Position numbers and translations under genes: made by a program
DNA from: Rubrobacter xylanophilus
Lineage (GTDB): Bacteria; Actinomycetota; Rubrobacteria; Rubrobacterales; Rubrobacteraceae
DNA: 64,000 nt
NCBI RefSeq assembly: GCF_007164525.1
Contig: NZ_AP019791.1
Span: 2,591,501 to 2,655,500 of the forward strand
Reading direction: 5' to 3'
Shown here: positions 5,712 to 62,345 of the stretch, piece after piece
Layout of the letters: each line of letters starts with the position of its first letter
Position numbering within the stretch: position 1 is the stretch's first letter
The notes under the pieces: generated by a model
Told to the model about the DNA's origin: nothing
The model's database searches: none
What the model saw: only the letters and a program-made list of their open reading frames with translations

Positions 5712-5713
5712 GA

Positions 5714-8406: not shown

Positions 8407-8416
8407 CAATATCCTC

Positions 8417-8908
8417 CTATGACCAGCAGAACTCTGCATAGGCGCACTTGCCGCAGTAGCGGATGCGCCTGGCGGGTGGTGGCTGGTAGCTCTCCAACAA
8501 CCGCTCCAGCTTCTCTACCGTCTCACTTACCTTCTCTTCGAGCTCCGGGGTTAGCTCGACCTCCTCGCGGAACCGCTCTTTGGGCACCAGGATCTCGCCG
8601 CTGGCCTCGATCCCTTCCTCCCGCAGCCGCAGCAGGTAGTAGCCGACCTGCAGCCGCGCCGCGGGCAGGTAACGGGTGGACTTCTTTATCTCGGAGAAGA
8701 CGAGCCGGCCCCCCTCGCGCCGCACGCGGTCTATCTTCATGCCCGGCAGCTCGATCTCCTTCATCGACCTCTCGTAGTGCTCGAGCTGGTTGAGCCTCCC
8801 CTCGACCAGCAGCTCGAACTCCCTCTCGGGCTCCATCTGCCGCGCCATCAGCCACGCCTGCCGGGGGCAGACCGCGTAAGACTGCACGAGAGTCCCGGTG
8901 ACGCTCAC
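8417..8908 (-). CDS. cas4: CRISPR adaptation exonuclease Cas4
   Basis: 163-residue RecB-like Fe-S exonuclease that trims prespacers and selects PAMs during adaptation. GTG at 8908 overlaps the cas3 stop as GTGA. The single N-terminal cysteine of the iron-sulfur site is in YAVCPRQAWL, and the other three are in YCGKCAYAEFC at the C-terminus. The nuclease core shows a Glu before VEGRLNQLEHYE, then KIDRV and FSEIKKSTR with the E-x-K pair, and a late LQVGYYLLRL helix. Its usual partners cas1 and cas2 are not in the window; they may lie left of position 1. Confidence 0.92.
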   Translation of the reverse strand: MSVTGTLVQSYAVCPRQAWLMARQMEPEREFELLVEGRLNQLEHYERSMKEIELPGMKIDRVRREGGRLVFSEIKKSTRYLPAARLQVGYYLLRLREEGIEASGEILVPKERFREEVELTPELEEKVSETVEKLERLLESYQPPPARRIRYCGKCAYAEFCWS

Positions 8909-11388
8909 AGCATCATCGCCTCGTCTTCGCCCCACTTGTATCCCGCCTCCATGTCGTAGAACGTTGAGTAGTTCGAGCGAACCTCGTCGAACGAGAGATA
9001 GAAGTGCTCCGGGATCTCGGGGTGTTGCGGGGGGAAATTCTTTCGCAGCCGGTTCACGGTGGGGGTTACGGTGAACGGTGCAACCCCCCGGTAGGCGCGA
9101 CGGATCCTGGTACGGTTCTTCTCTTTCTCACGGTAGAGGCTCGCGAGGTGCTCTATGGCCTCCGCGGCTCTCTCGTTTATCTCCACGAGCACCGGCATGG
9201 TCGCAAGCTCCTCCTGTATGAAGCGGTAGCGGCTTATGGTGATGTGCTCACCCTCCCGACGGTCGAACTCGAGCTCCCTTACGGCGGCGATGTATTCGAT
9301 CGAGAAGTCGTCGCCCTTTCGTTCCTCCAGAGTGGCGAAGTAGCGCTCGACGAGAGCGTGGAGCTCCGGCTCATCGACCTCTTCGCGCAGCATCTCGTGG
9401 GAGACTAGGGGGAGCACCCGTCCGTAGACCATCTCGGCGAAGGGACGCGAGTTCTCGTTCTCCAGGAAGACCACGTGCACCGGGGAGGGGTTCGGGGTAT
9501 TGCCGCTTCGGTTGCACCGGCCCGCGACCTGTACGATGGAGTCGAGTGGGCCCTGATCTCTTACGACCTCGTCGAAGTCCAGGTCCACCCCGGCCTCGAC
9601 CACCTGCGTGGAGACGACGAGCGGCTTCGCTCCCCGTCGCATGCACCTCTTGAGCAGGCGCACCCGTCGCGAGCGTTGCCAGGGAGTTATGTTGGTCGAG
9701 AGGTAGAAGATGGAGGCGTCTGATCTCTCCCTGCCGTACTCCCGGTATGAGGAGAGACCGAGGCGTTCTTTCAGCATCCGGTAGAGCTCCACGGAGCTCG
9801 CGATGGTGTTCAGCACCACGAGCAGCGAGCGGTCTGGGGAGTGGATATCCTCGATGAAGTCCGCAAGCTCCTCGAGGGTGCGCACGTCCCGATGGGGCAC
9901 GAGGCGCGTTCTGGAGAGCCCGGCGAAGTTTCGCTCGGGCCTTTCGAGCAGCTCCCTCGCATGGGGGAGGATGCGGGGGCGGGTCGCGGTCATCTGGATC
10001 ACGGTGCAACCGAGGTCCCGGGAGAGCGTCGTGAGGACGTGCCTCACGAGCCTCCACTGTTCGTAAGGGATGCTCTGCACCTCGTCCAGGATCAGGATGC
10101 TCCCCGCGATGTTGTGCAGCCGCTTGAGCGGCCGGTTGCGGTTCGTCAGCAGGCTCTCGAAGAGCGAGACGAAGGTGGTCACCACTACCTCCGGCTCCCA
10201 CGCCTCGACGGAGAGGAGCCGGTCTTCCACCGCCTCATCTTCGTTCTCGCCGCCGTCGAGCCGGGCGAGGTGGTGGCTTCTGAGGAGGGTGCCGTGCGGG
10301 TCATGGGAGAATTCCGGCCACCGGCGCAGCACGCTCTCGATGACGTCGGCGTTCTGCTCGATGATGTTCACGAAGGGGAGGGCGTAGATCACGCGCGGCA
10401 GATGCCCGGTCTCCTTCCGGATGCGCTCCCTGAGCCTGAGCGCCGTCTCCAGCGCGGCGAGCGTCTTCCCCGATCCCGTCGGAGCCGTGAGGCTCAGGAT
10501 GGCCGGGTAGAGCTCATCGATCGGGCTTTCTTCTACCTTCCGGACGCACTCCTTTCGGACTTCCTCCCTGATCCCGGCGAGCCTCTGCGCGGCGGGGGAC
10601 TCGGGACCCTCGCCCCCCTTCAGGGTTCGCACGTGATCCTCCACCAGCCGGGGCGGAATGGGGCGGGGGATGGTCTTTTCTTCAGCGGCGGCCGAGACGT
10701 GCTTGTCTGCGTCTATGAGCGCGGAGAAGAGGAGGAGCAGCCGCCAGTAGCGGCGGGTCGCCTCCGGATCTCCTTCTCTAAGAAGCCTTCGATGCGACCT
10801 GCGCATCTCCGGCAGGAGATGCCACCAGCTTGTTAGCGACAGGAACTCCTGCGCTTCCGGAACCCCGAGCTCCTCCATCTCGGAGACTATCTGCTCCCTG
10901 TGCGCCCCGCGCATGTCTTCTAGCTGCGCTCCGACGGCGGCCAGCTCTCTGCGGAGCCCTGCCGGAAAGTCCGCGAAGGCCGGGGCGTCTCTCAGGTCCT
11001 CCTTGCGGGGCAGCACCTCCTGCGGGGTCAGCAGGTGGCCGTGGTGGCGGTGGATCGCGAGGTAGACGAGAAGCGGGGCTTCGACATCCTCGGGATGCCG
11101 TCTTTTAGCAACGAACGCCCCGAGGAGCGCGGAGACGAAGGAGTGGTGGGAGTACTCTTTTCTGGGGGGCTTCTTCTCCAGCGGCGGGAGCTTCTCCTGA
11201 AAGTAGGTCGTGTACTTGCCGAAGTCGTGGGTGAGCCCGCAGAGCCGGGCAAGCGCGGCGAGGTGCTCTCGCCCCGAGATAGGGAGCGTGAGCACGTTTC
11301 TCTCCGCCATCTGGGCCACCGCCGCGAGGTGGGCTTTCAGGAGCTCCTCCGACCTCCCTCCCCGCGCCGGACGCGCCAGGAACCTCAC
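8905..11388 (-). CDS. cas3: Type I-B helicase-nuclease Cas3 (HD plus DExD/H helicase)
   Basis: 827-residue effector recruited by Cascade to degrade DNA. GTG at 11388 overlaps the cas5 stop as GTGA; the much longer upstream reading is a shadow over cas5. The N-terminal HD nuclease has LTHDFGK with His54-Asp55 and SHHS near 80-83. Helicase motifs follow: APTGSGKT (Walker A, ~302-309), LILDEVQSIP (DEVQ ~435-438), TATRPR, VVSTQVVEAGVDLDFD and QVAGRCNRSG. HD and helicase are fused in one chain in the normal order. A Cas3 C-terminal domain follows from about residue 680. It is complete and appears functional. Confidence 0.95.
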   Translation of the reverse strand: MRFLARPARGGRSEELLKAHLAAVAQMAERNVLTLPISGREHLAALARLCGLTHDFGKYTTYFQEKLPPLEKKPPRKEYSHHSFVSALLGAFVAKRRHPEDVEAPLLVYLAIHRHHGHLLTPQEVLPRKEDLRDAPAFADFPAGLRRELAAVGAQLEDMRGAHREQIVSEMEELGVPEAQEFLSLTSWWHLLPEMRRSHRRLLREGDPEATRRYWRLLLLFSALIDADKHVSAAAEEKTIPRPIPPRLVEDHVRTLKGGEGPESPAAQRLAGIREEVRKECVRKVEESPIDELYPAILSLTAPTGSGKTLAALETALRLRERIRKETGHLPRVIYALPFVNIIEQNADVIESVLRRWPEFSHDPHGTLLRSHHLARLDGGENEDEAVEDRLLSVEAWEPEVVVTTFVSLFESLLTNRNRPLKRLHNIAGSILILDEVQSIPYEQWRLVRHVLTTLSRDLGCTVIQMTATRPRILPHARELLERPERNFAGLSRTRLVPHRDVRTLEELADFIEDIHSPDRSLLVVLNTIASSVELYRMLKERLGLSSYREYGRERSDASIFYLSTNITPWQRSRRVRLLKRCMRRGAKPLVVSTQVVEAGVDLDFDEVVRDQGPLDSIVQVAGRCNRSGNTPNPSPVHVVFLENENSRPFAEMVYGRVLPLVSHEMLREEVDEPELHALVERYFATLEERKGDDFSIEYIAAVRELEFDRREGEHITISRYRFIQEELATMPVLVEINERAAEAIEHLASLYREKEKNRTRIRRAYRGVAPFTVTPTVNRLRKNFPPQHPEIPEHFYLSFDEVRSNYSTFYDMEAGYKWGEDEAMML

Positions 11389-12152
11389 TGCATGAACACC
11401 CCGTACTCGTGAGATTCCTGGTAGGAGACCTCGAAGACCTCGCTCTCCAGCCGGGCGGTTATGTGCGGCCCCGCACGGTTGTACAGCAGATCCCCCGCGG
11501 CGATTAGCCGCCGTCTTTCGTCGAGGGCGAGCGGGGTGCGCTCCTTGACGATCTGGGTTCCCGCCCCGAGACGGGGCGGGCCGGAGAGGGCGGAGGCCGG
11601 GAGCACGGTGCTGATGGGAAGCTCCTCCCCCCGCCTTCCGAGGCTCCAGTCCTCCGTGCTCGCCACGTGCTCCACCCGGCCCGGGCACTCGGACATCCCC
11701 AGGTACGGCGGGTAGACGGGCGCGCCGGATTCCAGAACCTCTCGGAGGCTTTCGAGCCACCTCCGGTCCTCGTGCGTCACGTAGATGCGGTAGCGGAGCT
11801 CTCTGTAGCCCACCTCCGGGAAGATCCATTCCAGCGGTACCTGTATGGGCCCTTTGCTCCCGTCGAAGCCGCCGGCTCCCCCCGTCCAGACGTGGCCCTC
11901 GGTCATCAGGTAGTTGACCTGCTGCATCACCCGCCGCACGGGCACCCGCACGGAAAGCGCTATGTGGCAGCGTTCGAGGCCGAGGTCTTCAGCGTATTCG
12001 TCGCGTTCGTAGCCCATCATCCCGGCGATGAGCCCCGCGACGGTCGTGCGAGGCGGAAATGGATATGAGAGCGAGGAGGAGTTGGTGTAGAACTTGCGGA
12101 ACATGCCGTACGCTCCGCAGAGGTCGAAGACGATAAGCGGGTTCTGCGGCAT
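11385..12152 (-). CDS. cas5: Type I-B Cascade subunit Cas5
   Basis: 255-residue RAMP protein that caps the 5' end of crRNA in the Cascade complex. The N-terminal LIVFDLCGAYGMFRKFYTNSSSLSYPFPPRTTVAGLIAG is typical of Cas5 (Hmari/I-B type), with the PPRTTVAGL motif near residue 35. The C-terminus ends in SHEYGVFMQ. ATG at 12152 lies 3 nt after the cas7 stop and the stop overlaps cas3. Confidence 0.92.
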   Translation of the reverse strand: MPQNPLIVFDLCGAYGMFRKFYTNSSSLSYPFPPRTTVAGLIAGMMGYERDEYAEDLGLERCHIALSVRVPVRRVMQQVNYLMTEGHVWTGGAGGFDGSKGPIQVPLEWIFPEVGYRELRYRIYVTHEDRRWLESLREVLESGAPVYPPYLGMSECPGRVEHVASTEDWSLGRRGEELPISTVLPASALSGPPRLGAGTQIVKERTPLALDERRRLIAAGDLLYNRAGPHITARLESEVFEVSYQESHEYGVFMQ

Positions 12153-12155
12153 CGT

Positions 12156-13100
12156 CTAGAAGGTCTCCAGCCGGTCGCCGAGTCTCTCCTGCAGGCCGCA
12201 CTCGAAGGCATCTCCGAGCTCCGGGTGGGCCCAGAGGCGTGTCCTGACGATGGAGTCCTCGACCGCGCGCACTCTCTCCAGCACCCGATCGTAGCCCAGC
12301 GAGAAGTCCCGGATGTCGCGCAGGGTGTCGAGGGTCTTGCCGTCCTGCGGGGTCAGGACCAGGTCCTCGCGCACGTCCCCGAGCCGTAGAGCCGATCCGT
12401 CCTCATACTCGACGCGCAGGTAGAGCCGCGGGGTCTGCCCGATCTTGCTCCTCGTCGTCGCCTGCTGCGGGATGGCCCTCACCATCGCCTCGTCGAGCGC
12501 GGTGAGGTCTTCGTCGGTGAGCCCGGTGTGTCGGGCGCGGCTCTTGCTCACGATGCCGTAGAAAGCGAGCAGCGAGTAGTGCACCCGCCAGTCTTTTCCG
12601 AAGGTGCCGTACTCGTTCTCCCTGCCCGCGAAGTGGCTCGAGATGGTGGCGGAGTTGTTAATCTCGACCCGGTGCAGCGAGTATCCCCAGCTGAACTGCA
12701 CTGGACCGGTGAAGGTGACCGAGGTGTTCTCCATCGGCATCGTCGCCCCGAAGAGCCGCACGTCCCTGAGACGCCTCAAGAGCCAGTCCTTGAACTCCCG
12801 GCTCTGGCGCGCCTGGCGCTCGTTGAGGTTTGCGCCGTTGTCGCGGTTGTAGTCCGAAAGCAGCACGCTCATGCGCTGCTTGGAGCTGGTCGTCTCGTCC
12901 TGCTCGGTGCGCCTGACCCAGATGTCCTCCCCGGCGTCGAGCCAGTAGTCCCTGAGGTAGCGCTTGAGCCTGACGTCGGAGACGAGGTTGCGCCCGGTTG
13001 CTTCGTCCATGCGCGGGCGGTTCTCGTCGTCCGGGTCGCCGTTTGGGTTGGTGAGCTTAGCGTCGTAGAGGTAGAGGATGTCTCCGTCGTGGATGGCCAA
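12156..13100 (-). CDS. cas7: Type I-B Cascade backbone Cas7 (Csh2)
   Basis: 314-residue RAMP that forms the helical backbone along the crRNA. Hallmarks are LYLYDAKLTNPNGDPDDENRPRMDEATGR at 9-37, followed by LVSDVRLKRYLRDYW, and GATMPMENTSVTFTGPVQFSWGYSLHRVE in the middle. These are features of the Csh2/DevR branch used in type I-B. ATG at 13100 is followed by the cas5 start only 3 nt after its stop. Length is normal. Confidence 0.93.
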   Translation of the reverse strand: MAIHDGDILYLYDAKLTNPNGDPDDENRPRMDEATGRNLVSDVRLKRYLRDYWLDAGEDIWVRRTEQDETTSSKQRMSVLLSDYNRDNGANLNERQARQSREFKDWLLRRLRDVRLFGATMPMENTSVTFTGPVQFSWGYSLHRVEINNSATISSHFAGRENEYGTFGKDWRVHYSLLAFYGIVSKSRARHTGLTDEDLTALDEAMVRAIPQQATTRSKIGQTPRLYLRVEYEDGSALRLGDVREDLVLTPQDGKTLDTLRDIRDFSLGYDRVLERVRAVEDSIVRTRLWAHPELGDAFECGLQERLGDRLETF

Positions 13101-13121
13101 GCCTTCTCTCCTTTCTCTCTT

Positions 13122-15143
13122 CTAGGCGGGCTGCTTCTCTCTCGCGGTCATCGCCCTGAAGGTACGGTGCGAGTAGCCGCTCAGCAGGTAGTAGACGTTC
13201 TCTGAGGGGGTGAGACGCCATACCCTCTGGTTCCGGGTCAGGAGCTCCTGCGCCTGGGCGAAGATGGCTTCGTTGCGGCCCTGCAGGAGCGGTCGGCGCT
13301 CGCCGGAGCGGTCGGTGTAGCGGTACTGGCGGAGCTTGTCGAAGAGCTCGGTGGCCAGGCGCTGGACGCGGGGGAGGGTCATGCCCTGGTAGTTGATCTT
13401 GTTCAGGATCGTCTTCTCCCCACCCCGGCCCTCGGGACCGAGCCGCCACTGGGCGTTCGCGATCTCGGCGACCAGAGCGCCGAGCAGGTACAGGGCCGCC
13501 TGCTGCTCGTCGTAGCCGAGCCTCTTCAGGTACTCCTTCTCCGCTTCGTCGAGGGAGAGCCTCTCCAGGTACTCTTGCGACACTTCTTCCTCCTTCAGCT
13601 GGTCGAGATCCCGCAAGAACGCGAGCAACAGGTTGGTCTGCGCGAGATAGCGGACGAGGGTGAGGTCTTCCATGCCTTCCTTTGGGGCGCTCACCTGGTA
13701 CGATCCCGTGTTGCCGAAGCGATAGGCCCGCGCCAGCTCCATGAAGCCGTCCGTGAGCTCCTTGCGGTCTATGAGGCCGCCGGAGATGAGGGTGTGGTAG
13801 AAGGCCAGGATCTTCTTGTTCAAGTATTCGACTTTCCCATCAGGCTTGCGGACTTTTCGTACTGGGATGAGGTAGTAGATCTGCTGTAGGGTGAGGTCTC
13901 TCGCCTCGTCTCCGTAGAGCTCCTCCCACAGCCGCCCCGTCTCGAACCCCTGCGCGCGCAGCTCCTCCAGGCGGTAGGACGGAATGTCCTGGATGAGCCT
14001 AAGGACCTCGAACTTGGCCTGCTTCTGTTTGTAGAAGAGCAGGTTGATCATGTACCCGCTCGCAAGGTGTTCTTCTCTGAACTCTTCGAGCTCCTCGTCC
14101 AGCTCCCCGGCCTGCACCCTCCCGATGTCGAAGAGCGTCCTGTTGCGGATGCTCCTGAGCGTGCGCACGAGTGCCTCCGGGAACCCGCGCGGGATCTCCA
14201 CGGTGTACAAATCCGGGATCATGTAACCTCTGGCTCCGGCGAAGCCGAAACCCAGCTCCCTCCCTACAAAGCGCTCTCCGACGAGCAATGCCCGGTACGC
14301 TTCTTTCGAGAGGGAGAAGTTCGAGACGAAACCCTTCTTCGTGGCTCCAGAAGCGAACCCCGACTTGTCCGTTATGAAGTACTTGAACCTGAAGCGAGTC
14401 ATATCCGTGGTGACCGGGCCATACTCGCCGCTCAGGTGACAGCGTCCCTCCTCGTCCCCTGTGAAGGCGCTATCCACGAACCTGCGCTCAAGGTACTCGT
14501 GGTAGGCCGGGTCGTCGATCAGAAGTTCTCCGTCGAGCTCGATGGTGAAGAGCACGCCGCTCTCCGGGATCTCCGGAAAACGCTCCCGCAGCGCCTTCAC
14601 CACCCTCTGCGGTACGTTCTTTGGTTTGGTGCCTCCTCTTATCTCCGCTCGCAGATCCTCCCGGGAAGAGCCTTTTATGCCGAGCCTGCTCAGATCCCAG
14701 AGCCGCCTGTTGCGCTGATAGGCGCCACCGCCTTTCACGCCAATCTCTTTCGGTTCGCCAAGGTCGAGATAAAGCTTCTGCACCAGAATCTTCAGCTTTT
14801 TGTAGAGTGCACTCTCAGGGTCTATACGCTGCTCCTCGAGCAGGTTTGGGATGTTCTGGGAGATCAGGTAGCCCAGGTTGTCCGAGGTGAGCCTGTCCTG
14901 CGGGTTGCTACCCGAAGCATTGCCGAGCCACAGGTACCTCGCCGCATCGTTGCCTCTGACGCTGAGTTCTCTCAGCTCCACGCTCAGCGAGGGCTTCCGG
15001 GAGTTTAGCTTCAGGATAGTAATGTAGGATTCGCCTTTCCTGTTTCGAGGAGGTGCTGCGGCGAGCGACTCCAGGACCGCGCGCCGGCCTCCACCGCTCT
15101 CTTCTAAAAGCGCGCGCCCGATCTGGTAGATGCTCTCTATCAT
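13122..15143 (-). CDS. cas8b: Type I-B large subunit Cas8b (Csh1, TM1802-like)
   Basis: 673-residue large subunit of the type I-B Cascade, expected to recognise the PAM. The N-terminus MIESIYQIGRALLEES and the later C-rich strip CHLSGEYGPVTTDMTRFRFKYFITDKSGFASG, followed by KGFVSNFSLSKEAYRALLVGE, match the Csh1/TM1802 family. Many helices follow, including NLLLAFLRDLDQL. The sequence CHLSGE is one half of a possible zinc site; a second CxxC is not obvious. ATG at 15143 overlaps the cas6 stop as ATGA and a 21-nt gap precedes cas7. Confidence 0.88.
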   Translation of the reverse strand: MIESIYQIGRALLEESGGGRRAVLESLAAAPPRNRKGESYITILKLNSRKPSLSVELRELSVRGNDAARYLWLGNASGSNPQDRLTSDNLGYLISQNIPNLLEEQRIDPESALYKKLKILVQKLYLDLGEPKEIGVKGGGAYQRNRRLWDLSRLGIKGSSREDLRAEIRGGTKPKNVPQRVVKALRERFPEIPESGVLFTIELDGELLIDDPAYHEYLERRFVDSAFTGDEEGRCHLSGEYGPVTTDMTRFRFKYFITDKSGFASGATKKGFVSNFSLSKEAYRALLVGERFVGRELGFGFAGARGYMIPDLYTVEIPRGFPEALVRTLRSIRNRTLFDIGRVQAGELDEELEEFREEHLASGYMINLLFYKQKQAKFEVLRLIQDIPSYRLEELRAQGFETGRLWEELYGDEARDLTLQQIYYLIPVRKVRKPDGKVEYLNKKILAFYHTLISGGLIDRKELTDGFMELARAYRFGNTGSYQVSAPKEGMEDLTLVRYLAQTNLLLAFLRDLDQLKEEEVSQEYLERLSLDEAEKEYLKRLGYDEQQAALYLLGALVAEIANAQWRLGPEGRGGEKTILNKINYQGMTLPRVQRLATELFDKLRQYRYTDRSGERRPLLQGRNEAIFAQAQELLTRNQRVWRLTPSENVYYLLSGYSHRTFRAMTAREKQPA

Positions 15144-15907
15144 CTCTTTCTCCTTTTGGATGGGACGGTGATCATCCCGAAGCCCTGAGAGTTCTTGCTC
15201 CCTAGCCCGGTGTCGTAAGCGAGCTGTAGATACGGACGGGGCATCCTCAGCTCGTAGAGGCCCGTCCAGCCCTTGACGACGGTGCCCTTGAAGCGCAGTA
15301 CTTTCTGGTCCGCGCTCCTCACCCGGTACGGCCTGATGCTCGCTTCTTTCAGGTCATCATCGGGGTCTGTATCCCAGCCCAGAGCCCAAACCTTGCGGCT
15401 GATGTTCTCTACGAGGGCCTGGCTCCACTCCTCCTCGTAAGGGGAGTAGTAGTAGGTCTTCTTCTTGCCATTAGGGGCCGTGAGCGTCGTGTAGGCGGTG
15501 ATGGGGGAGAGGGCCCGGACGATCACGGGCTTCTCCCCGTCCATCTCTGGCTCGGGCTCCACTGCTACCTCCTCCACGAAGCACCGCGCCCTCCCGAGCC
15601 TCACTTCGGGCCTCCTGAGCAGGTGCTCGGCGAGGGAGCCGAGCACCTCGGCCTCCGCGGCTCCGAGGTAGAAGTGCACCGGCCCCTCGAAATCGATGCG
15701 GCCCCCCTCCACCCGACGCCTCCCGAAGAGGCGCGAGAAGACGAAGAGCTTGAACCGGCGCTGCCCGTAAGCGTGGCCCCTGTCGTGCAGCCAGCCGGCC
15801 AGCGTGCGGCTTAGGTTGGCGTAGATGAATCCCTGTACCGCGGCGTTGTACTGCAGGGGCAGCCTCAGGGAGCCCTGCTCCCCGGATAAGACCACCTTCA
15901 AACGCAT
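15140..15907 (-). CDS. cas6: crRNA-processing endoribonuclease Cas6
   Basis: 255-residue CRISPR repeat endonuclease, first gene of the cas operon. The N-terminal ferredoxin-like fold carries LPLQYNAAVQGFIYANLSR, with His41 in GWLHDRGH as a candidate catalytic residue. The C-terminal glycine-rich loop GLGSKNSQGFGMI is the Cas6 signature. As the only cas6 of the operon it presumably makes guides for both the type I-B and the Cmr complexes. ATG at 15907 has only a weak AAGAAG ribosome site. The leader of about 64 nt contains a small hairpin. Confidence 0.93.
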   Translation of the reverse strand: MRLKVVLSGEQGSLRLPLQYNAAVQGFIYANLSRTLAGWLHDRGHAYGQRRFKLFVFSRLFGRRRVEGGRIDFEGPVHFYLGAAEAEVLGSLAEHLLRRPEVRLGRARCFVEEVAVEPEPEMDGEKPVIVRALSPITAYTTLTAPNGKKKTYYYSPYEEEWSQALVENISRKVWALGWDTDPDDDLKEASIRPYRVRSADQKVLRFKGTVVKGWTGLYELRMPRPYLQLAYDTGLGSKNSQGFGMITVPSKRRKR

Positions 15908-15937
15908 CTTCTTTCGTCTTTCTAGATGTAGCTTCCC

Positions 15938-15952
15938 TTCCCCGCTGGGGAA
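15938..15952 (-). other. Small hairpin in the cas6 leader
   Basis: TTCCCC and GGGGAA form a perfect 6-bp stem around a 3-base loop, between the putative cas promoter and the cas6 start. It could affect translation or early elongation of the operon. There is no T run, so it is not a standard terminator. Confidence 0.35.
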
Positions 15953-15978
15953 ATCGATGCCGCTCTTACTTTACCGCT

Positions 15979-16007
15979 ATTGTGCTTGTTTTCAGCGGAT
16001 GATGCAA
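15979..16007 (-). promoter_or_regulatory. Putative promoter of the cas operon
   Basis: On the minus strand TTGCAT (16002-16007) and CACAAT (15979-15984) are separated by 17 bp. Both match the sigma-A consensus only in part. It is the best-spaced pair in the 115 bp between cas6 and the preceding gene and would give a leader of about 64 nt. Confidence is limited by the weak -35. Confidence 0.4.
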
Positions 16008-52241: not shown

Positions 52242-52307
52242 ATTAACCGGGATTTAAGACCGCTTTCGTCCTCCTTTAACCCGCGTCGGCAGGAAGCCCC
52301 TTAGAAT
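52242..52307 (+). promoter_or_regulatory. PHO-box-like promoter 1: four 11-bp direct repeats plus -10
   Basis: Four head-to-tail 11-bp units occupy 52242-52285 exactly. They begin ATTAACC, TTTAAGA, TTTCGTC and TTTAACC, and the last unit is TTTAACCCGCG. Sixteen bp later comes the -10 box TAGAAT (52302-52307), so the last repeat covers the -35 position. This is the layout of promoters activated by PhoB/PhoP-type response regulators, which bind 11-bp tandem repeats. It drives the RTX-like gene at 52343. Confidence 0.75.
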
Positions 52308-52342: not shown

Positions 52343-52792
52343 TTGACCCTCAGACAGAAGTCCGCTCCACCGCTCGCCGGGCTCCCGCGCGCCGAACCCG
52401 CCGCTTCCCGGCTGCCCGGGTTCCTGCTCGCGGCGTTCGGGGTGCTGCTCATCGTCCTCTCCGTGCCGGACCTCGCCTCCGGCGCCGTGCTCGGGGGGCG
52501 GGAGGACGAGACGCTGCGGGGCGGTGCCCGGGACGACGCCCTCGTCGCGCTCGCCGGGCACGACGCGTTGTGGGGGCTGGGGGGCCGGGATCTGCTGGCC
52601 GGCGGCCCGGGGGACGACGAGCTCTACGGCGGCGCCGGGGCCGACGTGCTGCTCGGCGGGGAGGGCTCCGACTTCATCGAGGGAGCCGACGGCGAGCCGG
52701 ACCGCATCCTCTGCGGTCCCGGAGAGGACGTGGTCAACGCCGACCCTCAGGACCGCGTGGCCCCCGACTGCGAGACCGTCTACCGGGACTGA
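52343..52792 (+). CDS. Small secreted or anchored RTX-like calcium-binding repeat protein
   Basis: 149 residues from TTG 52343 (GGGAG 8 nt upstream). A single hydrophobic segment LPGFLLAAFGVLLIVLSVPDLASGA (~24-48) is a signal peptide or anchor. Residues ~50-112 contain about six nonapeptide-like units of the GGxGxDxLxG type: GGREDETLRGG, GHDALWGLGG, RDLLAGGPGDDELYGG, AGADVLLGGEGSDFIEG. These form the calcium-binding parallel beta-roll of RTX proteins. Two cysteines flank GPGEDVVNADPQDRVAPDC at the end. Function is unknown. The PHO-box-like promoter suggests expression in phosphate shortage. Confidence 0.75.
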   Translation: MTLRQKSAPPLAGLPRAEPAASRLPGFLLAAFGVLLIVLSVPDLASGAVLGGREDETLRGGARDDALVALAGHDALWGLGGRDLLAGGPGDDELYGGAGADVLLGGEGSDFIEGADGEPDRILCGPGEDVVNADPQDRVAPDCETVYRD

Positions 52793-52796
52793 TCCT

Positions 52797-52862
52797 TTTA
52801 AAGGACTTTTATCCTCGTTTTGAGCCTCCTTTAACCCGCGGCGGGGCACCGGCGGCTATCTT
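52797..52862 (+). promoter_or_regulatory. PHO-box-like promoter 2: four 11-bp direct repeats plus -10
   Basis: Four exact 11-bp units fill 52797-52840. They begin TTTAAAG, TTTATCC, TTTGAGC and TTTAACC, and the last is TTTAACCCGCG, identical to that of promoter 1. After 16 bp the -10 box TATCTT is at 52857-52862. The geometry equals promoter 1 to the base. It lies 5 bp after the RTX-like gene and drives the PHP-glycosyltransferase gene. Confidence 0.78.
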
Positions 52863-52910: not shown

Positions 52911-55175
52911 GTGGCGGACGCGGTAACCAGAATAGACCTGCACCTGCACTCGCGGGCCTCCGGGACGGCGACGAACTGGTGGGTGAAGGGGTTGGGCTCC
53001 GGGGTGGAGGCCCGGGAGTCCTACACCGACCCCGAGGACGCCTACCGGATGGCTCGGGAGGCGGGTATGGACTTCGTCACCCTGACCGACCACGAGACGA
53101 TAGAGGGCGCGCTCGGACTGAGCGGCAGGCACGCGGATTTCATAATCGGCGAGGAGGTCTGCGCGGCGTTCCCCGAGGACGGAAGCCTGGTGGACGTTCT
53201 CGTCTACGGTTTGGACGAGGAGGACCACCGGGAGATCCAGGCCAGGCGCGGCGACGTCTACCGGCTGGTCTCCTACCTCCGGGAGGCCGGGCTCGTGTAC
53301 GTCCTGGCCCATCCCGCCTACGGGCTCCCGGAAGCCTCGACGCGCGCCGCGGTGGAGCGCCGCCTGCTGCTCTTTGGCCTCTGGGAGTTCGTGAACGGCT
53401 CCCGCCCGGCCGAACAGAACCGTCTGGCCCGGGAGTTGGCCGAGGGAGTGGGGCCGCTGGAGCTGCGGCAGATGGCCGGCCGGTGCGGTCTGCCGGTCCC
53501 TCCGCATCGCCGGGTGCGGGGCACCGGAGGCTCGGACGACCACGGCGGGTTGTACGGGGGGAAGACCTTCACGCTGCTGCCCCGGGTCTCGGGTCCCGAG
53601 GAGTTGCTCGAGGCGCTGGCAGCCGGGGAGTGCGAGCCGGGGGGAGCCGACGGCTCCCCGGACAGACTCGCCCACACCGCCCTGAGGATCGCCGGGGGCG
53701 CCCTGAAGGAGGGAGAGAGCTGGCACGCCGCCCGGTTGCTGCAGCGTCTCTCTCCGACCGGCAGGCTGCACCCCGCGAGGGGTGCCGGCGGGGGGCTGCG
53801 CGAGCGGCTCCCGCTGCTGAGCCGGCTGCCGGAGGCGGGGATGAAGGGGGAACTGGTCCGGCGCTACGAGGACCGGGTCGCCGGGGCGCTGGAGGGCGTG
53901 GGTTCCGGGTTCCCGGCGCTGGACCTTCTCGGGGCGCTCGGCGGCATTCTGGAGGGGCACGGCTACATAGCGCCCTACGTCGCCCTCCACGGGTATTTCG
54001 GTCGCGAGACGGAGAGGGCGCTTCGCCTGCGGCGCGAGCTGCTTCCCGCCCGGTGCGGGGCGGTGAAGGTCGGCGTCTTCGTGGACGGGCTGGACGGGAT
54101 CCACGGGGTGGCGACGATGTACCGGAACATCGAGTCCCTCGCCGGGGGAGGTGAGCTGAGGGTCGTGCGGTGCAGGGAGGAGCTGGGGATCGTGGCCCGG
54201 GTTCCCGTCCCGTTCTACGGGGGGTTGGAGCTGGAGGTGCCCTCCCTGGTCTCCGTGCTGGAGCATGTGACCGGAGAGGGTTACGACACCCTGCACGTCG
54301 CGACCCCCGGACCGCTCGGCCTGGCAGCGCTGGTGGCGGGTCTGGTGCTGCGCATACCGGTCGTCGGGGCCTACCACACCGAGTTCGGGACCTACGCGCG
54401 GGTCCTCTCCGGGGATCATTTCGTGGCCGACATGGTCGAGGTCACCGTCCGGGAGTTCTACGAGCGCTGCGCAGCCGTCGTCGTACCCTCGCGTGCCACC
54501 TCCCTGTCTCTGCGGGCCCGGGGTTACAGGATCCGGCGCTTCGAGCTTTTGCGGAACGGGGTGGACGGCGACCTCTTCAGCCCGGAGCGCAGGGACGGCG
54601 GGCTGCGCCGGGCACTCGGGGGCGGCAGGAAGCTTTTGCTGTACGTCGGGAGACTAAGCAGGGAGAAGGGGCTCGAGGGGATGGCCGCCGGGTATCTCCG
54701 GCTGCGCCGCCGGCGCGGCGACGTCCATCTGGTGCTCGCCGGGGAGGGGCCGCTCAGAGGAGACCTGGAGGAGAAACTCGGGGAGACCGCCACCTTCACC
54801 GGCCTCGTGGAGGGGGAGGAGCTGGCCCGGATCTTCGCCTCCTGCGACGTCTTCGTTTTCCCCAGCCTGACCGACACCTTGGGACGCGCGGTGTTGGAGG
54901 CGCAGGCTTCGGGGGTTCCGGCGGTGGTCTACGGAAGCGGGGGACCGTCGGAGTGCATCCTCCCGGGCGAGAGCGGCTTCGTCGCGGACCCGGGGGACGA
55001 GGAGGGGTTCTTCTCGCTGGTGGAGGTGTTGCTCGACGACGAGGCCCGGAGAAGGCGCATGGGGCGGGCGGCCAGGCGTTTTGCGGGGTCCATGGGGTGG
55101 GAGGCGGTCGCCGGGCGGCTCCTGGCGCTGCACGCTGAACTCGCCCGTAGAGAGCGGTCGGTCGCCCCGGCATGA
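52911..55175 (+). CDS. PHP-domain/GT4 glycosyltransferase fusion protein
   Basis: 754 residues from GTG 52911 (GGGGAGG 8 nt upstream). The N-terminal PHP phosphoesterase domain has its metal ligands in RIDLHLHSRASG (His11, His13), TLTDHETIEG (His61), LAHPAYG (His133) and GSDDHGG (Asp208-His210). A ~130-residue linker includes helices. From ~385 a GT4 (GT-B) transferase follows: VGVFVDGLDGIHGVATMYRNI, VVGAYHTEFGTYAR, EFYERCAAVVVPSRATSLSLRARG, ELLRNGVDGDLFSPERRD, LYVGRLSREKGLEG and the E-x7-E region FPSLTDTLGRAVLEAQASG. The GT half resembles MgtA/SqdX-type enzymes making phosphate-free glycolipids. With the PHO-box promoter, lipid remodelling during phosphate starvation is a reasonable inference. 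Its ATGA overlap ties it to the next, broken gene. Confidence 0.85.
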   Translation: MADAVTRIDLHLHSRASGTATNWWVKGLGSGVEARESYTDPEDAYRMAREAGMDFVTLTDHETIEGALGLSGRHADFIIGEEVCAAFPEDGSLVDVLVYGLDEEDHREIQARRGDVYRLVSYLREAGLVYVLAHPAYGLPEASTRAAVERRLLLFGLWEFVNGSRPAEQNRLARELAEGVGPLELRQMAGRCGLPVPPHRRVRGTGGSDDHGGLYGGKTFTLLPRVSGPEELLEALAAGECEPGGADGSPDRLAHTALRIAGGALKEGESWHAARLLQRLSPTGRLHPARGAGGGLRERLPLLSRLPEAGMKGELVRRYEDRVAGALEGVGSGFPALDLLGALGGILEGHGYIAPYVALHGYFGRETERALRLRRELLPARCGAVKVGVFVDGLDGIHGVATMYRNIESLAGGGELRVVRCREELGIVARVPVPFYGGLELEVPSLVSVLEHVTGEGYDTLHVATPGPLGLAALVAGLVLRIPVVGAYHTEFGTYARVLSGDHFVADMVEVTVREFYERCAAVVVPSRATSLSLRARGYRIRRFELLRNGVDGDLFSPERRDGGLRRALGGGRKLLLYVGRLSREKGLEGMAAGYLRLRRRRGDVHLVLAGEGPLRGDLEEKLGETATFTGLVEGEELARIFASCDVFVFPSLTDTLGRAVLEAQASGVPAVVYGSGGPSECILPGESGFVADPGDEEGFFSLVEVLLDDEARRRRMGRAARRFAGSMGWEAVAGRLLALHAELARRERSVAPA

Positions 55176-56386
55176 GCCCGGAAGCCCGGGGATTACGGGT
55201 TCTGAAGGTCTGCCCGGCCTTCCCCGCCGGCGAGGAGGAGGGGAGGGACCCCTGGTTGCTGGAGCTCGTGCGGCGTTTGCGGGAGGCCAGGCTGGAGCTG
55301 GAGGTGCTAGCCCCCCTCCCGGGAGGGCCGCGGAGGGCGGGAGGAGGTGTGCGGCGTGCCGGTGCACCGCCACCGTTACGCCCCGCGCCAGGCGGAGATC
55401 CTGCACCGGAGGGTGTCCGGGAAGAGGGTCCTCGACGGCCTGTGGCGACTCGCGTTTCCGGGAGTTGGCCTCGTTGCAGCCGGAGCCTTCGCCGCGGGCA
55501 GGCTGGCCCGCCGGAGGGGATACGCCGTGATCCACGCCCACTGGCCGCTGCCCGCCGGCCTCGTCGCGCTGACGGGCGCGGGCCGCGCCGGAAAGGCCGC
55601 GTCTGGTCGCCACCTTTCACGGGGCGGAGCTCGCCGCCTGCGGAGGCAACCGGCCGCTGCAGGGTCTTTTGGCGACCGTCTGCGCCGGGCTCGACGCGGC
55701 GGTGGCGAACTCCAATGACGAGGATGGCGCCGGTCGTCATCCCCTTCGGTCCCTCGAGGCTGGCGGTGGAGGGCCGGGGGACGTCCCGCGGGCGCTCTGC
55801 TGTGGTGCTTGCGGTGGGCCGTTTGGTGGAACGCAAGGGGTTTGCCGGGCTCGTCAAGGCCTCCGGCCGGTTGCGTGGGCGGGCCCGGGTGGTGATAGTC
55901 GGGGAGGGGGAGGCCCGTGAGGAGCTTCTGCGGAAGGTTAGGGCCGGGGGAGTCGGGGACGTGGTGAGGATCGCCGGCCGCGTGAGCGGTTCCGAACTGG
56001 CCCGGCTCTACCGGGAGAGTTCGGTCTTCTGCCTGCCCGCCGTGGTCGACCGGCGGGGATGCACCGGGGGGCTCTGGGTGGCGATCACCGAGGCCATGTT
56101 CCACGGTCTCCCGGTCGTCGCCGGTCGTGTCGGGGGGATACCCGACGCCGTCGTGCACGGCGAAACCGGGCTGCTCGTTGAGCCCGGCGACCATGAAGCC
56201 CTCGCCTGCGCCCTGCTGATGCTGCTCGCCGACCCCGGGCTCGCGCGCGAGATGGGAGCGGCGGGCCGGCGGCGGGCCGAACGGCTGTTCTCCTGGGAGC
56301 GGGTCGTGGCGGATCATCTCGGACTGTACGAGAGGGTCGTCACGGGGAGAGGCGCTGGATCTCCGGCCTCCCCGCAGGGACCCTGA
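55172..56386 (+). pseudogene. GT4 glycosyltransferase broken by three frameshifts
   Basis: An open frame of 404 codons exists, but its centre is nonsense. The true sequence changes frame three times. Frame A (from ATG 55172) gives GLRVLKVCPAFPAGEEEG and LELEVLAPLPGGP. Near 55325-55345 it moves to frame B: REEVCGVPVHRHRYAPRQ and VIHAHWPLPAGLVAL. Near 55590-55605 it moves to frame C: RLVATFHGAELAACGG and GLLATVCAGLDAAVANS. Near 55710-55740 it returns to frame A: APVVIPFGPSRLAVEG, VVLAVGRLVERKGFAGLV, EAMFHGLPVVAGRVGGIPDAVV. Each piece matches the normal GT4 order. Three same-direction shifts restore the frame, so the ORF stays open in GC-rich DNA. The middle third is destroyed and activity is unlikely. 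Sequencing error is less likely with three events. Confidence 0.8.
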
Positions 56387-58126
56387 AGCGCGCCAGCGTG
56401 TCTGCCCGCGGGTTTTCCTGGGGCTCCCGAATAGTCCGCACGTACTTCATGGTACAGACCAGCTCCCGCTCCGTGAGCTCCATAACGTTGTAGCCGTGCG
56501 TCGAGGAGTCGAAGAACTCGTAGTGGGGGTTGCTTATCCGCAGGGCGTCCTCCAGCCTTGCCGGGCTCCTCACTGCGGGGCCGGAGGGCGACTGTCCGAG
56601 GCGGGCTATCTCGTAGAGGTTGGAGGAGGTCACGGAGCCCCCGACGAAACAGACCCCGACGGCGTTCGGCGGTTCGTTCGAGGGGTCGTCGTAGTCCTCC
56701 TTGGCGTACCCGGCGGCGAAGGAGTGGATGTCGCCGGTTATGATCACGAAGTTCTCCACCCCGGCGCGGCGTATGCTGCGGGCTATCTCCGAACGCTCCG
56801 CTCCGTAGCCGTCCCACTGGTCCAGGGTCAGTAGACGCCTCCCGGCGGGACCGGAGGGACGCCCGGCAGGATGCCTCTCTCGGCCCCCAGGAAGGTGTTG
56901 AGGATCTTCGTCTGCATGAACTGCACCTCGTTGCCCCATATCTTCCAGGTGCTCCGGGAGCCGGTGATCTTCTGCAGGAGGAACTCCTTCTGTAGCGGGC
57001 CGAGCATGGTGCGGCCCGGGGCGCTCTCCCTCCCGCATCCCGGGGTCACGTAGCGGTTGCGGGTCTCGAGGCCGCACGGCGGACCGTCCCTGTAGAGCCG
57101 CTCGTCGGTCATGACGAGGGTGGCCAGCCTTCCGAAGTCGAAGGACCGGTAGACCACGATCTGCTCGAGCGGACCCTTCGCCGGGTCGAAGTACACCCCC
57201 ACGGGGTTGAACTCCACCCATGCCCGGCTGGCCGCGGCCCGGCGCTCCGGGTCTCTCATCCTTCCGGAGGCGTCGGGCGCGAAGACCTCAAAGGAGTCGT
57301 TGGCGAACTCGTGGTCGTCCCAGGTCATGATGAAGGCGAAGTTCTCGTGCACCCGTTGCAGGTTGCGGTCTGTCTTGTACTTCTTGTACAGGAATCTGTA
57401 GTCCTCCAGGGTGTCGGCCTCTCCCGGCCTCCTGGATCCCAGCGCGGAAGGGGGAATCCGGCGTTCCGGAGGCCCGCCGCCCTGGAAGCTCTCCTCGGCC
57501 ACGGTCTCGTAGATGTAGTCGCCAAGGTGCACGACGAAGTCCACCCGCTCCCGGGCCAGGGCTCCCAGGGCGTTGTAGTAGCCGTTTGTGTAGTCCTGGC
57601 ACGAGACGTAAGCGAACCTCAGGCGTCCGGGAGAGTCCGCCGCGGCCGGAAGGGTCTTGAACCTTCCCGTCCTGCTCGCCGCCCCGCCGTAGTAGAAGCG
57701 GTAGCGGTAACTCCGGAAGGGCTCCAGCTCCGGCCTTCTGAGCTGGACCTTGACGGTGTAGTCCCTGTCCGGCCCCGTCCGGGCGACGCCGCTCAGCAGG
57801 GGTTTTCTGAACGCCGCGGCGTCGCTCCGATCGTCGTCGGGGGCAACCCGGTACCCTACCCGTACCTCACCCCTCCGGCGGGGAGGCCGGACGCGGGTCC
57901 AGAGCACGATGCCGTCCGGCCGGGGATCTCCGGAGGCCACGCTCTGCGGGAAGAGTTCCGGTGCTACGGTGGAGGTTCGGAACAGCTCCCGGGCCTCGGC
58001 CGTGCCGGCTCCGGCCCAGATCACCACGCCGGTGGCGAGCGAGTACTTGAGGAAGCCGAGCCGGCTTATGCAGACTTCGTCCAGGCGATCCAAGTCCCGA
58101 GAACCCCCTCTTTCTCTGTGTTCCAC
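56340..58126 (-). pseudogene. phoD: PhoD-family phosphatase interrupted by a frameshift
   Basis: The first frame runs from GTG 58126 to a stop at 56828 and carries the phosphatase core: VASGDPRPDGIVLWTRV, RFAYVSCQDYTNGYYNALGAL, VDFVVHLGDYIYE, MTWDDHEFANDS. It ends PPGGVY. The adjacent frame continues without a gap as LTLDQWDGYGAERSEIARSI, then NFVIITGDIHSFAAGY and GVCFVGGSVTSS, down to a stop at 56340. One missing base at about 56830, within TAC-TGA, splits the gene; adding one C restores a normal ~595-residue PhoD. The second piece holds the metal ligands of GDIHS, so the first piece alone cannot work. Possible reasons are true decay, programmed frameshifting or sequence error. The N-terminus has SRLGFLKYSLATGVVIWAGAG, a Tat-like signal with only one arginine. 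Confidence 0.8.
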
Positions 58127-59639: not shown

Positions 59640-61328
59640 CTACCCCTCCCGCGTGATCCTCGGGTTCGCGAACGGGTCGGGTGCCTCGAAGGGCTGCGGG
59701 AGGCCGTCTATGTACGCCTCGAGCGCCTCGAGGTCGCTGCCGAGGGTCTGCTGGTTCGTGCCCTCCTTGAAGACCGTGAAGCCGTCGCCGCCGGTTGCGA
59801 TGAAGCTGTTGGCCGCGACGGTGTAGGTGGCGGAGCGGTCTATGGGGGTGCCGTCCGGGAGGGTGACGCTGGTTATGCGCTCTCCGGCGGGCCGCGAGGC
59901 GTCGTAGGAGAACTCCAGGCCGCTCACCTGCAGGATGCGGGTCCTCGGGTTGCCGCTGGGGTCGGTCTGGAACTGCTGCTCGAGGAGCGCGTAGATCTGG
60001 TCCCCGGAGAGCTCCATCCGCGCCACCTGGTTGTCGAAGGGCTGTACCGCGAAGAGCTCCCCGAAGGTCACCTCGCCCGCGGCTATGTCCGCCCGGATGC
60101 CGCCGGGGTTCATGAAGGCGAAGTCGGCGCCGGCGTACTCTCTTTGCGCGTCGGCGATGAGGTCTCCGAGCGCGCTCTCGCCCGCGGGCGTCGTCGCGCG
60201 GGTTATGTCCTCTGCGGCGACCCCGACGACCCGGTTTGCGACCGGCGCTATCTCCCGCTCGTACTCGGCGACGAGGGCGGCGACCTCGGGGTCGGGCGCG
60301 ATGGCGTCCCGGTAGGTGGTTATGACCTCGGCCTTGGCGCCGACGACGTCCTTCGTCCTGCGGTCGATGCGCAGGTCCACGTCCTCTATGGCGGTGCCGA
60401 AGCTGTAGGCCTGCACGAGCAGCTTGCCGTCCACGCGGGTGTTCATGAATGTGTGGCTGTGCCCGGCGATGACGGCGTCCACCGCGTCGCTCATCTGCGC
60501 CGTCTCGGTCACGACCTCGCCGGTGGCGGTCTCGCCGCTCTGAAAGCCGCCGGAGTGGGCGAGCACGACGATCGTCTCGACGCCCTTCCTTCTGAGCTCT
60601 GGGACGTAGCGGTTCACGGTGTCGGAGATGTCCAGGAAGTCGAAGGGGGCGACGGCGTCGGGGATGACGATCTGCTCGGTCTCCGGCGTCACCACCCCGA
60701 TAAACCCGATCTTCACGCCCCTGCGCTTGATGATCTCGTAGGGCGGCAGGATCGGGTCTTCGGTGCCGGCCCAGACGGTGTTGGCGGCGATGTAGGGGAA
60801 CTGCGCCCCGGGGAAGTCCGGGTCGGAGGTGTTCACCGGCTCGCCGTCGGGGCCGGTCTTGAACTGGTTGCCGTCGGTCCTCTGCCTGCCCTTGAGGAGG
60901 CGGAACATCTCGGTCTTGCCCTCGTCGAACTCGTGGTTGCCAAGGGTACCGAGGTCGAGGCCCATCAGGTTCATCGCGTGGACGGCGGGCTCGTCGTGGA
61001 AGTAGCTGGAGATCAGGGGCGACCCCCCGACGGAGTCCCCGGCGTGGATGCGGATCGTGCCCTTCGGGTTCTCGCGCTCCTCGCGGTCGAGGTAGGCGGC
61101 CAGGTACTCCGCGCCGCCGACCGGGCGCCCGTCCACGCTGCGCGGCGACTGCAGCCAGCCGTGGAAGTCGTTGAAGCCCAGGATCTGGACCTCCGCGATC
61201 CTGCCCTGCGGTGCGGGCCTGTCCTTCTTGGGCCTGGACTCGGCGTCCGCCGCCCAGAAGACAGACAACGCGAGCGCCAGCGCCGCGGCGAGCGCGACGA
61301 GGGTGCTCGTGGATCTGCTCTTTGCCAT
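59640..61328 (-). CDS. Secreted 5'-nucleotidase / 2',3'-cyclic phosphodiesterase (UshA-like)
   Basis: 562-residue extracellular metallophosphoesterase releasing phosphate from nucleotides. A Sec-type signal peptide is clear (LVALAAALALALSVFWAADAES, residues 10-31). The calcineurin-like domain has QILGFNDFHGWLQ (~48-60), IHAGDSVGGSPLISSYFHDEP, LGTLGNHEFDEG, VVLAHSGG and VIAGHSHTFMNTRVDG. The C-terminal 5'-nucleotidase domain has ALGDLIADAQREYAGADFAFMNPGGIRADI, FGELFAVQPFDNQV and the substrate clamp SYDASRPAG, FIATGGDGFTVFKEG. ATG 61328 is 9 bp after the glpQ-type gene. It is third in an operon of phosphate-scavenging genes. Confidence 0.93.
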   Translation of the reverse strand: MAKSRSTSTLVALAAALALALSVFWAADAESRPKKDRPAPQGRIAEVQILGFNDFHGWLQSPRSVDGRPVGGAEYLAAYLDREERENPKGTIRIHAGDSVGGSPLISSYFHDEPAVHAMNLMGLDLGTLGNHEFDEGKTEMFRLLKGRQRTDGNQFKTGPDGEPVNTSDPDFPGAQFPYIAANTVWAGTEDPILPPYEIIKRRGVKIGFIGVVTPETEQIVIPDAVAPFDFLDISDTVNRYVPELRRKGVETIVVLAHSGGFQSGETATGEVVTETAQMSDAVDAVIAGHSHTFMNTRVDGKLLVQAYSFGTAIEDVDLRIDRRTKDVVGAKAEVITTYRDAIAPDPEVAALVAEYEREIAPVANRVVGVAAEDITRATTPAGESALGDLIADAQREYAGADFAFMNPGGIRADIAAGEVTFGELFAVQPFDNQVARMELSGDQIYALLEQQFQTDPSGNPRTRILQVSGLEFSYDASRPAGERITSVTLPDGTPIDRSATYTVAANSFIATGGDGFTVFKEGTNQQTLGSDLEALEAYIDGLPQPFEAPDPFANPRITREG

Positions 61329-61337
61329 CCGTTCCTC

Positions 61338-62345
61338 CTATGTCCCGTTCGATGCTCTCCGCCCGCGCTCCTCCTCGCCCCTGCAGGCGTCGTTCGCCCG
61401 CTCGGCGAGGGCGGCGGCGCGCTTCCTGCCGTCTATGGCGCTCTCGCCGAGGACCGCGTCGAGCCGGTCGGGGAAGTTCGTGAACATCCCGTCCACGCCC
61501 GTCGCGATGAGTCCCTCCATCTCTGCGCTCTCGTTGACGGTGTAGGGGTGAACGTCGAGGCAGCGGGCGTGCGCCGCCCCCACGAGCGCGGCGTCCACGT
61601 CGTCCTTCGAGGGACCGATGCCGACCGCGTAGGCGGCGGTGGCGTCGAGCCTGGCCTGGATCGTCTCGCTCGTCTCCGTGCCGGAGAAGAGCTGTATCAG
61701 GGGCAGCGAGGGGTCGAGCGCGTGGACCTTCTGCAGGCTGGCGGGGGAGAAGGACTGGATGAGGACCTGCCACCGCTCGGCGGCGGGACGTCTGAGCCCG
61801 TACTCGTCCATCAGCCGCAACAGCTCCTCCTCCATCCCGGGTGCGGCCTCGGGGCTCTTGGTCTCGATGTAGTAGTTGACGCTCTTGCGGTACCTCTGGA
61901 AGACCTCCTCGAGCGTGGGTATCTTGAGGCCCACGTACTCCGGCCTCGCGTACTGCGGGTACGCCTCGTTGAACCAGCTCCCCACGTCGCAGGTCTTTAT
62001 CTGCGCGAGCGTCTTCTCGCGCACGAGGCCCGTGCAGTCGCCCGGCCCGGACTCGGCCGTCGGCCTGGCGGTGCGGTCCAGCGTCTCGTCATGCAGGACG
62101 ACGAGCACGCCGTCGCGCGTCATCTGCAGGTCCTGCTCGATGTAGTCGGCGCCCATCCTGAGCGCCAGGTCGTAGGCGGCGAAGGTGTGCTCCGGCGCGT
62201 ACCCGGAGGCGCCCCTGTGCCCGACGTTCAGCACCACGTCCTCGGGCTGCTTCGCCCCGGCGGGCGCAGCCGCGAGCAGGACGGCCGCCAGCGCCGTCGC
62301 GAGCAGGGCGGAGAGCGCCCCCCTTCTCGTCGTTGCTCCGTGCAT
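61338..62345 (-). CDS. Secreted glycerophosphodiester phosphodiesterase
   Basis: 335-residue GDPD/GlpQ-like enzyme that hydrolyses deacylated phospholipids to glycerol-3-phosphate. A signal peptide (GALSALLATALAAVLLAAAPAGAKQ) is present. The catalytic motifs are LNVGHRGASGYAPEHTFAAYDLALRMGADYIEQDLQMTRDGVLVVLHDETLDRT, with His-Arg, the Glu-x-Asp pair and the second His. KIPTLEEVFQRYRKSVNYYIETKSPE and VDGMFTNFPDRLDAVL fit the barrel end. ATG 62345 lies 46 bp after phoD2. It provides organic phosphate together with its neighbours. Confidence 0.93.
   Translation of the reverse strand: MHGATTRRGALSALLATALAAVLLAAAPAGAKQPEDVVLNVGHRGASGYAPEHTFAAYDLALRMGADYIEQDLQMTRDGVLVVLHDETLDRTARPTAESGPGDCTGLVREKTLAQIKTCDVGSWFNEAYPQYARPEYVGLKIPTLEEVFQRYRKSVNYYIETKSPEAAPGMEEELLRLMDEYGLRRPAAERWQVLIQSFSPASLQKVHALDPSLPLIQLFSGTETSETIQARLDATAAYAVGIGPSKDDVDAALVGAAHARCLDVHPYTVNESAEMEGLIATGVDGMFTNFPDRLDAVLGESAIDGRKRAAALAERANDACRGEEERGRRASNGT

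Follow-up and report, generated by a model that had tools for sequence, protein, structure and literature searches.

Replacement of phospholipids by glycolipids is a main way in which bacteria save phosphate, and the known source of the diacylglycerol is PlcP, which is known as a metallophosphoesterase of the calcineurin type rather than as a PHP protein. A gene in Rubrobacter xylanophilus raises the question of whether one polypeptide might both free a lipid acceptor of its phosphate and glycosylate it. The gene lies in the window (the whole 64,000-nucleotide stretch of DNA analyzed here) and was described, in a sequence-only reading, as a PHP phosphoesterase fused to a GT4 glycosyltransferase under a phosphate-type promoter [Table 1]. 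A search of the open-licence literature returned no description of a PHP-GT4 fusion.

Table 1. Coordinates of the features discussed, numbered from the first position of the window
Feature	Position	Strand	Details
Second Pho-box-like triple repeat	52253..52279	+	TTTAAGACCGC TTTCGTCCTCC TTTAA; 2 mismatches
Pho-box-like element	52796..52839	+	four 11-bp direct repeats, TTTTAAAGGAC TTTTATCCTCG TTTTGAGCCTC CTTTAACCCGC
PHP-GT4 fusion gene	52911..55175	+	754 aa, GTG start
PHP metallohydrolase domain	52923..53645	+	residues 5-245; AlphaFold, Foldseek, ligand conservation
Helical linker	53646..54062	+	residues 246-384; hydrophobic stretch; AlphaFold helices 308-328 and 335-377
GT4 glycosyltransferase, GT-B fold	54066..55154	+	residues 386-748; Pfam, Foldseek, tree
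Downstream GT4 gene	55172..56386	+	start overlaps the stop of the fusion gene; part in other frame, ~55347-55718
PhoD-like alkaline phosphatase	56340..58126	-	frame break near 56830; ORF 56828-58126 plus part of 56340-57221

The fusion gene and its two domains

The open reading frame is a genuine gene. Its G+C content at the three codon positions (0.75/0.50/0.89) is the coding pattern of its own genome, and relatives in Rubrobacter and Chloroflexi span the full length at 51 to 81% identity. The AlphaFold model of the whole protein has a pLDDT of 89.8 and a pTM of 0.89, and the proposed union of PHP and GT4 in one protein is confirmed by the Pfam GT4 matches and by the PHP fold of the N-terminal half. 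In 56 of the 63 full-length family members, the hydrophobic stretch of the linker ranks in the top 1% of the 19-residue windows of the respective protein (top 1.6% in the 754-residue protein itself). This feature fits a peripheral membrane protein and is consistent with a membrane contact of PHP-GT4 via the linker.

The PHP half is a divergent branch of the PHP superfamily, as judged from its sequence. It misses the curated cut-off of the Pfam PHP profile (PF02811; 11.7 vs 26.4 bits), and an NCBIfam match to the CehA/McbA metallohydrolases (residues 7-165, E 5.7e-7) is under its own cut-off. When the PHP halves of three Rubrobacter copies were used on their own as queries, sequence searches of Pfam and PDB gave no significant match, and recognition required the fold together with a broader alignment. 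The model of this half (pLDDT 94.2) has the distorted TIM barrel of the PHP fold, and its top Foldseek match is the PHP domain of RNase AM (7ug9, E 1.9e-8), followed by BAD_1165 and TM0559. The ligands follow the H-x-H, D-H, E, H, D-x-H order of the superfamily: H11, H13, D60-H61, E82, H134, and D209-x-H211. The claim that all PHP ligands are present stands, the set being intact; the numbers given as H133 and D208-H210 each have to be raised by one, and E82 has to be added to the list. RNase AM (YciV), TM0559, BAD_1165, and cv1693 share this fold and these ligands; unlike PHP-GT4, however, they have no GT fusion, and RNase AM and cv1693 have been described as acting on RNA or nucleotides.

Conservation was assessed over 80 sequences, stand-alone PHPs included. 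H13, D60, H134, and D209 are invariant in all 80 and H11 is kept in 79, while Glu is found at position 82 in 73, His at 61 in 64, and His at 211 in 71. The exceptions follow lineages: H61 is replaced by Gln in twelve Verrucomicrobia fusions and H211 in eight fusions, the former (mostly together with H211) in one Verrucomicrobia group, whereas E82 is replaced by Gln in six fusions, mostly of another Verrucomicrobia group. These changes in two Verrucomicrobia lineages suggest that the PHP chemistry may differ within the family. In one copy (L037), Tyr replaces the last His of the PHP set, and the GT motifs are altered in this copy and in L035; some copies, therefore, need not be fully active.

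The GT half exceeds the Pfam cut-offs for PF00534 (106 bits, E 1.9e-30) and PF13439 (58 bits, E 1.2e-15), the matches covering residues 420-723, and its structural matches in Foldseek are BshA, MshA, and PimB'. It carries the motifs TPGP and YHTEF as well as D655-x7-E663, which corresponds to the E-x7-E donor motif; the first place is Asp or Glu in most members, E663 is present in 63 of 63 fusions, and S652, D655, and T656 are nearly invariant. The best curated match is NF053787 (NCBIfam, N-acetylglucosaminyl phosphatidylglycerol synthase), a family with a lipid acceptor, to which the GT half is related without being a member (118.8 bits, with the cut-off at 480).

The closest unfused GT4, with 34 to 40% identity, is encoded beside sqdB in nine Rubrobacter genomes, which identifies it as SqdX; SqdB itself is identified by its SQD1 match (E 2.7e-190). 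A tree built from 42 GT domains (22 fused) places all fused GT halves in a single clade (98/96), close to SqdX and separate from the other GT4s of the genome, in agreement with the SqdX-like character proposed earlier for the GT half. The R. xylanophilus protein groups with the Chloroflexi copies. PHP-GT4 and SqdX both have a GT-B fold, and sqdB belongs to the same inferred regulon as PHP-GT4 (see below). SqdX, in contrast, lacks a PHP half, forms a clade of its own, and is encoded separately in the same genome, at 581414. An identity of PHP-GT4 with SqdX was rejected, since the fused GTs fall outside the clade that holds the 581414 protein. In addition, sqdB is not adjacent to PHP-GT4 but ~0.9 Mb away by the shorter route, if the chromosome is circular. 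With SqdX as its nearest unfused relative, the GT half is predicted most likely to glycosylate a diacylglycerol-type acceptor, and we consider it probable that it is lipid-directed.

Probable phosphate-control elements

The four 11-bp repeats sit 72 to 115 bp 5′ of the GTG start. In pattern searches of the genome, the exact TTTTA-N6-TTTTA-N6-TTTT had one match at no more than one mismatch, with 0 expected from shuffles of the window. The looser TTTWA-N6-TTTWA-N6-TTTWA with two mismatches gave 16 matches at ~11 places, and a control pattern gave 7. Among these places are sites 68 to 153 bp 5′ of pstS (pst-phoU), sqdB, and phoD. PHP-GT4 thus shares an 11-bp direct-repeat box with pst and phoD of the same genome, by which we recognize a Pho regulon, and the "phosphate-type promoter" of the sequence-only reading is borne out. 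Boxes also precede all four Rubrobacter PHP-GT4 copies with upstream DNA (own genome, G018, G009, and L034), and phoD in G009 is likewise preceded by 11-bp-type repeats. The box matrix was written by hand from the own-genome sites, so the p-values of those sites are circular; phoD in G009 and PHP-GT4 in G018 are independent of the matrix, and L034, encoding an 81% identical protein, is less so. With 150 to 200 shuffles per region, the smallest p can be given only as "below about 0.007".

Across the family, 11 of 79 upstream regions have a double GTTCACC box at p≤0.02 versus 1.6 expected, nine of them in Actinobacteria; in Thermoleophilia and Solirubrobacteraceae, this actinobacterial double box is enriched 76 to 114 bp 5′ of the coding region. 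A CTGTCA-type PhoB box is found at one Arenicella locus (L089). The E. coli PhoB consensus matches one of the 79 regions, which is not above chance, and most non-actinobacterial copies among them have no recognized Pho box. For the R. xylanophilus gene, we regard Pho regulation as very likely.

Repeats of this type precede other genes as well. The triple repeat at 52253..52279 (Table 1) lies 5′ of a gene for a small RTX calcium-binding repeat protein (52343-52792, + strand), the product of which is probably secreted. Moreover, a related repeat is located 64 bp 5′ of a gene for an AP-endonuclease-2-like TIM-barrel protein. A relative with 53% identity is encoded directly 3′ of PHP-GT4 in G009 (the two genes are at L140:2176-3126 and L025:343-1272), a related gene lies near L055, and the TIM-barrel gene may belong to this phosphate response.

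Distribution, split forms, and gene neighborhoods

With the PHP half as query, the GTDB species genomes yielded 80 loci. Full-length fusions number 63, the R. xylanophilus product included, and are distributed over about ten phyla, so that the present protein does not stand alone. The titles of their records assign them to Rubrobacter, Chloroflexi, Verrucomicrobia, Planctomycetes, Thermoleophilia/Solirubrobacteraceae, Gammaproteobacteria (Arenicella), KSB1, Fibrobacteres, Brevinematales, FCPU426, and Sabulitectum. Among 39 Rubrobacteria genomes, four have PHP-GT4, one as a contig-edge fragment. The simplest account would be a single old fusion with some lateral spread. Two records titled Bifidobacterium breve MAGs (L044 and L045) hold Thermoleophilia-like loci near-identical to L105 and are apparently mislabelled.

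Three loci (L048, L087, and L069) encode split forms, in which PHP is joined to the acceptor-side GT-B half without the donor half; a complete GT4 adjoins the split form in L048 and L087. We read this arrangement as a sign that PHP shares the lipid site, that is, that it may produce the acceptor.

In the window, the apparently frame-interrupted GT4 gene downstream would be a pseudogene or reflect a sequencing error; at the equivalent place in the relative L034, a GT4 match is uninterrupted to the contig end. The PhoD-like product is 58% identical to that of a PhoD-like gene beside PHP-GT4 in G009, and elsewhere the genome has another PhoD-like gene, which is intact and has a Pho box (L142 1569-3257). 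Genes for a 5′-nucleotidase-like and a glycerophosphodiester phosphodiesterase-like protein (59640-61328 and 61338-62345, both on the - strand) are close by, which suggests a phosphate-scavenging neighborhood. At the other end of the window (positions 1-16000), the minus strand encodes proteins similar to components of type III-B and type I CRISPR-Cas systems.

In other genomes, pst genes occur within ~10 kb of PHP-GT4 or split PHP at five loci, each from a different phylum or class (L047, L069, L086, L057, and L043), in the first two on the same strand and a few genes away. All five have a pstC match and three of them pstS or phoU, while unrelated control proteins matched at 0 to 2 loci each; PstB-type ABC ATPase neighbors (10 loci) were left uncounted as unspecific. 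In addition, phoD is beside L035 and near L098. At L037, PHP-GT4, btaA (PF11899, E 1e-112), and a btaB-like methyltransferase gene are consecutive. This BtaA is the only one among the 39 Rubrobacteria; R. xylanophilus itself has none, nor do 37 of the other 38, and betaine lipid was therefore rejected as a general partner. An OlsB-like acyltransferase gene (PF13444) is directly 5′ in Arenicella (L074, L085, and L090) and near L058 and L060. Together with sqdB in the same inferred regulon, the btaA-btaB and olsB-like neighbors agree with the link to phosphate-free lipids suggested earlier. A gene for a DUF2334 deacetylase-like protein is near 26 loci, in Verrucomicrobia mostly directly upstream. 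We read its product as possibly deacetylating an aminosugar headgroup; these neighbors fit aminosugar polymers equally well as aminosugar lipids. An unnamed long protein with the motif DGxAPFFxGxxxGxTNWSK is also encoded next to PHP-GT4, in a Chloroflexi genome (L039:10420-12186) and in an unclassified genome (L060:12072-14099).

A putative lipid-remodeling enzyme and its alternatives

The promoter, the relatives, and the neighbors suggest a role in the exchange of phospholipid for sugar lipid under phosphate starvation. The best explanation, with a probability of roughly 0.55, is that PHP-GT4 is a phosphate-starvation-induced, bifunctional membrane-lipid remodeling enzyme. At low phosphate, the Pho response regulator would turn on production of the protein by way of the 11-bp repeats, and the hydrophobic linker helices would keep it at the membrane. 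The PHP half would then split a glycerophospholipid or phosphatidate at its phosphate ester, yielding diacylglycerol and free phosphate. The GT4 half (SqdX/MgtA/Agt-like) would add a sugar to that diacylglycerol, giving a phosphate-free glycolipid. Since the genome has its own SqdX-like GT4, this product must be a different or a redundant glycolipid. The order PHP first and GT second is that of the sequence-only reading and is the most economical. The sequence itself provides the fusion, the intact sites, the fold, the Pho boxes, the SqdX kinship, and the neighborhoods; we infer the membrane contact, the lipid substrate, the reaction order, and the sugar donor. There is good support for Pho regulation and for a role in lipids; for the substrate of the PHP half, the prediction that it makes the acceptor of the GT half has, at best, about even odds.

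An established arrangement offers a parallel. PlcP encoded with btaA-btaB or with agt, under Pho boxes, is known from lipid remodeling (PMC4796936), and the PlcP and Agt pair is found in Phaeobacter, SAR11, and Agrobacterium (PMC4796936, PMC8231724, PMC9239053). PHP-GT4 shares with this system the Pho box and the linkage to genes for phosphate-free lipids, including btaA-btaB neighbors (at L037), and Pho-regulated diacylglycerol release coupled to glycosylation is predicted for it as well. PlcP, however, is a separate protein, whereas one PHP-GT4 chain would carry both activities and do the job of phospholipase C and glycosyltransferase. Its hydrolase half has a PHP fold according to Foldseek; the fold of PlcP is known as calcineurin-like.

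Several points count against the best explanation: the Gln and Tyr replacements among the PHP ligands, the SqdX-like GT4 of the genome itself, the lack of a recognized Pho box in most non-actinobacterial copies, the DUF2334 neighbors, and the kinship of the PHP half, whose nearest solved relatives are nucleotide and RNA phosphoesterases. This kinship would suit a Pho-regulated glycolipid synthase whose PHP half does not work on the acceptor: it might cleave the released nucleotide or a phosphodiester in a headgroup, or it might have a regulatory role and be partly degenerate, as the H61Q/H211Q and E82Q changes across whole lineages might indicate. The four ligands invariant in every sequence speak against such a role, and the retention of PHP with the acceptor-side half in split forms that lack the donor half argues against action on the nucleotide product; we consider this alternative unlikely. 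GT4 or DUF2334 deacetylase-like neighbors and a weak similarity to TuaC-type GTs would fit an envelope polymer enzyme that dephosphorylates and then extends a glycan intermediate linked to a lipid or polyprenyl carrier, helping to replace phosphate-rich wall polymers when phosphate is short. Pho regulation suits this as well, a phosphate-controlled switch to teichuronic acid being known from Bacillus. Yet the family is widespread among Gram-negative phyla, which lack teichoic acids, its loci have no conserved polymerase, flippase, or ligase neighbors, and both the btaA-btaB and olsB-like linkage and the proximity to SqdX point to lipids, which makes a polymer role decidedly improbable. Synthesis of the sulfolipid SQDG, with PHP-GT4 as another SqdX supplied with UDP-sulfoquinovose by the co-regulated SqdB, would account for the shared Pho box and for SqdX as the closest relative of the GT half. 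It is very improbable given that the genome encodes a separate protein within the SqdX clade, that SqdB occurs in 35 of 39 Rubrobacteria and PHP-GT4 in four, and that no clear sqdB is near the other PHP-GT4 loci.

The bifunctional lipid-remodeling reading is directly testable, as it ties a single gene to a single lipid change. In its fullest form, a PHP-family phospholipase C or phosphatidate phosphatase would share one polypeptide with the diacylglycerol glycosyltransferase that consumes its product. The arrangement would offer an alternative to PlcP-Agt across about ten phyla, and its split versions would keep PHP with the acceptor-side GT half; we hold this tentatively, at somewhat less than even odds. 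If true, it would represent a previously undescribed one-polypeptide route of lipid remodeling and would give the PHP superfamily a membrane-lipid substrate. It would also explain a phosphate-saving lipid swap in soil and freshwater Verrucomicrobia, Planctomycetes, Chloroflexi, Thermoleophilia, and Rubrobacter.
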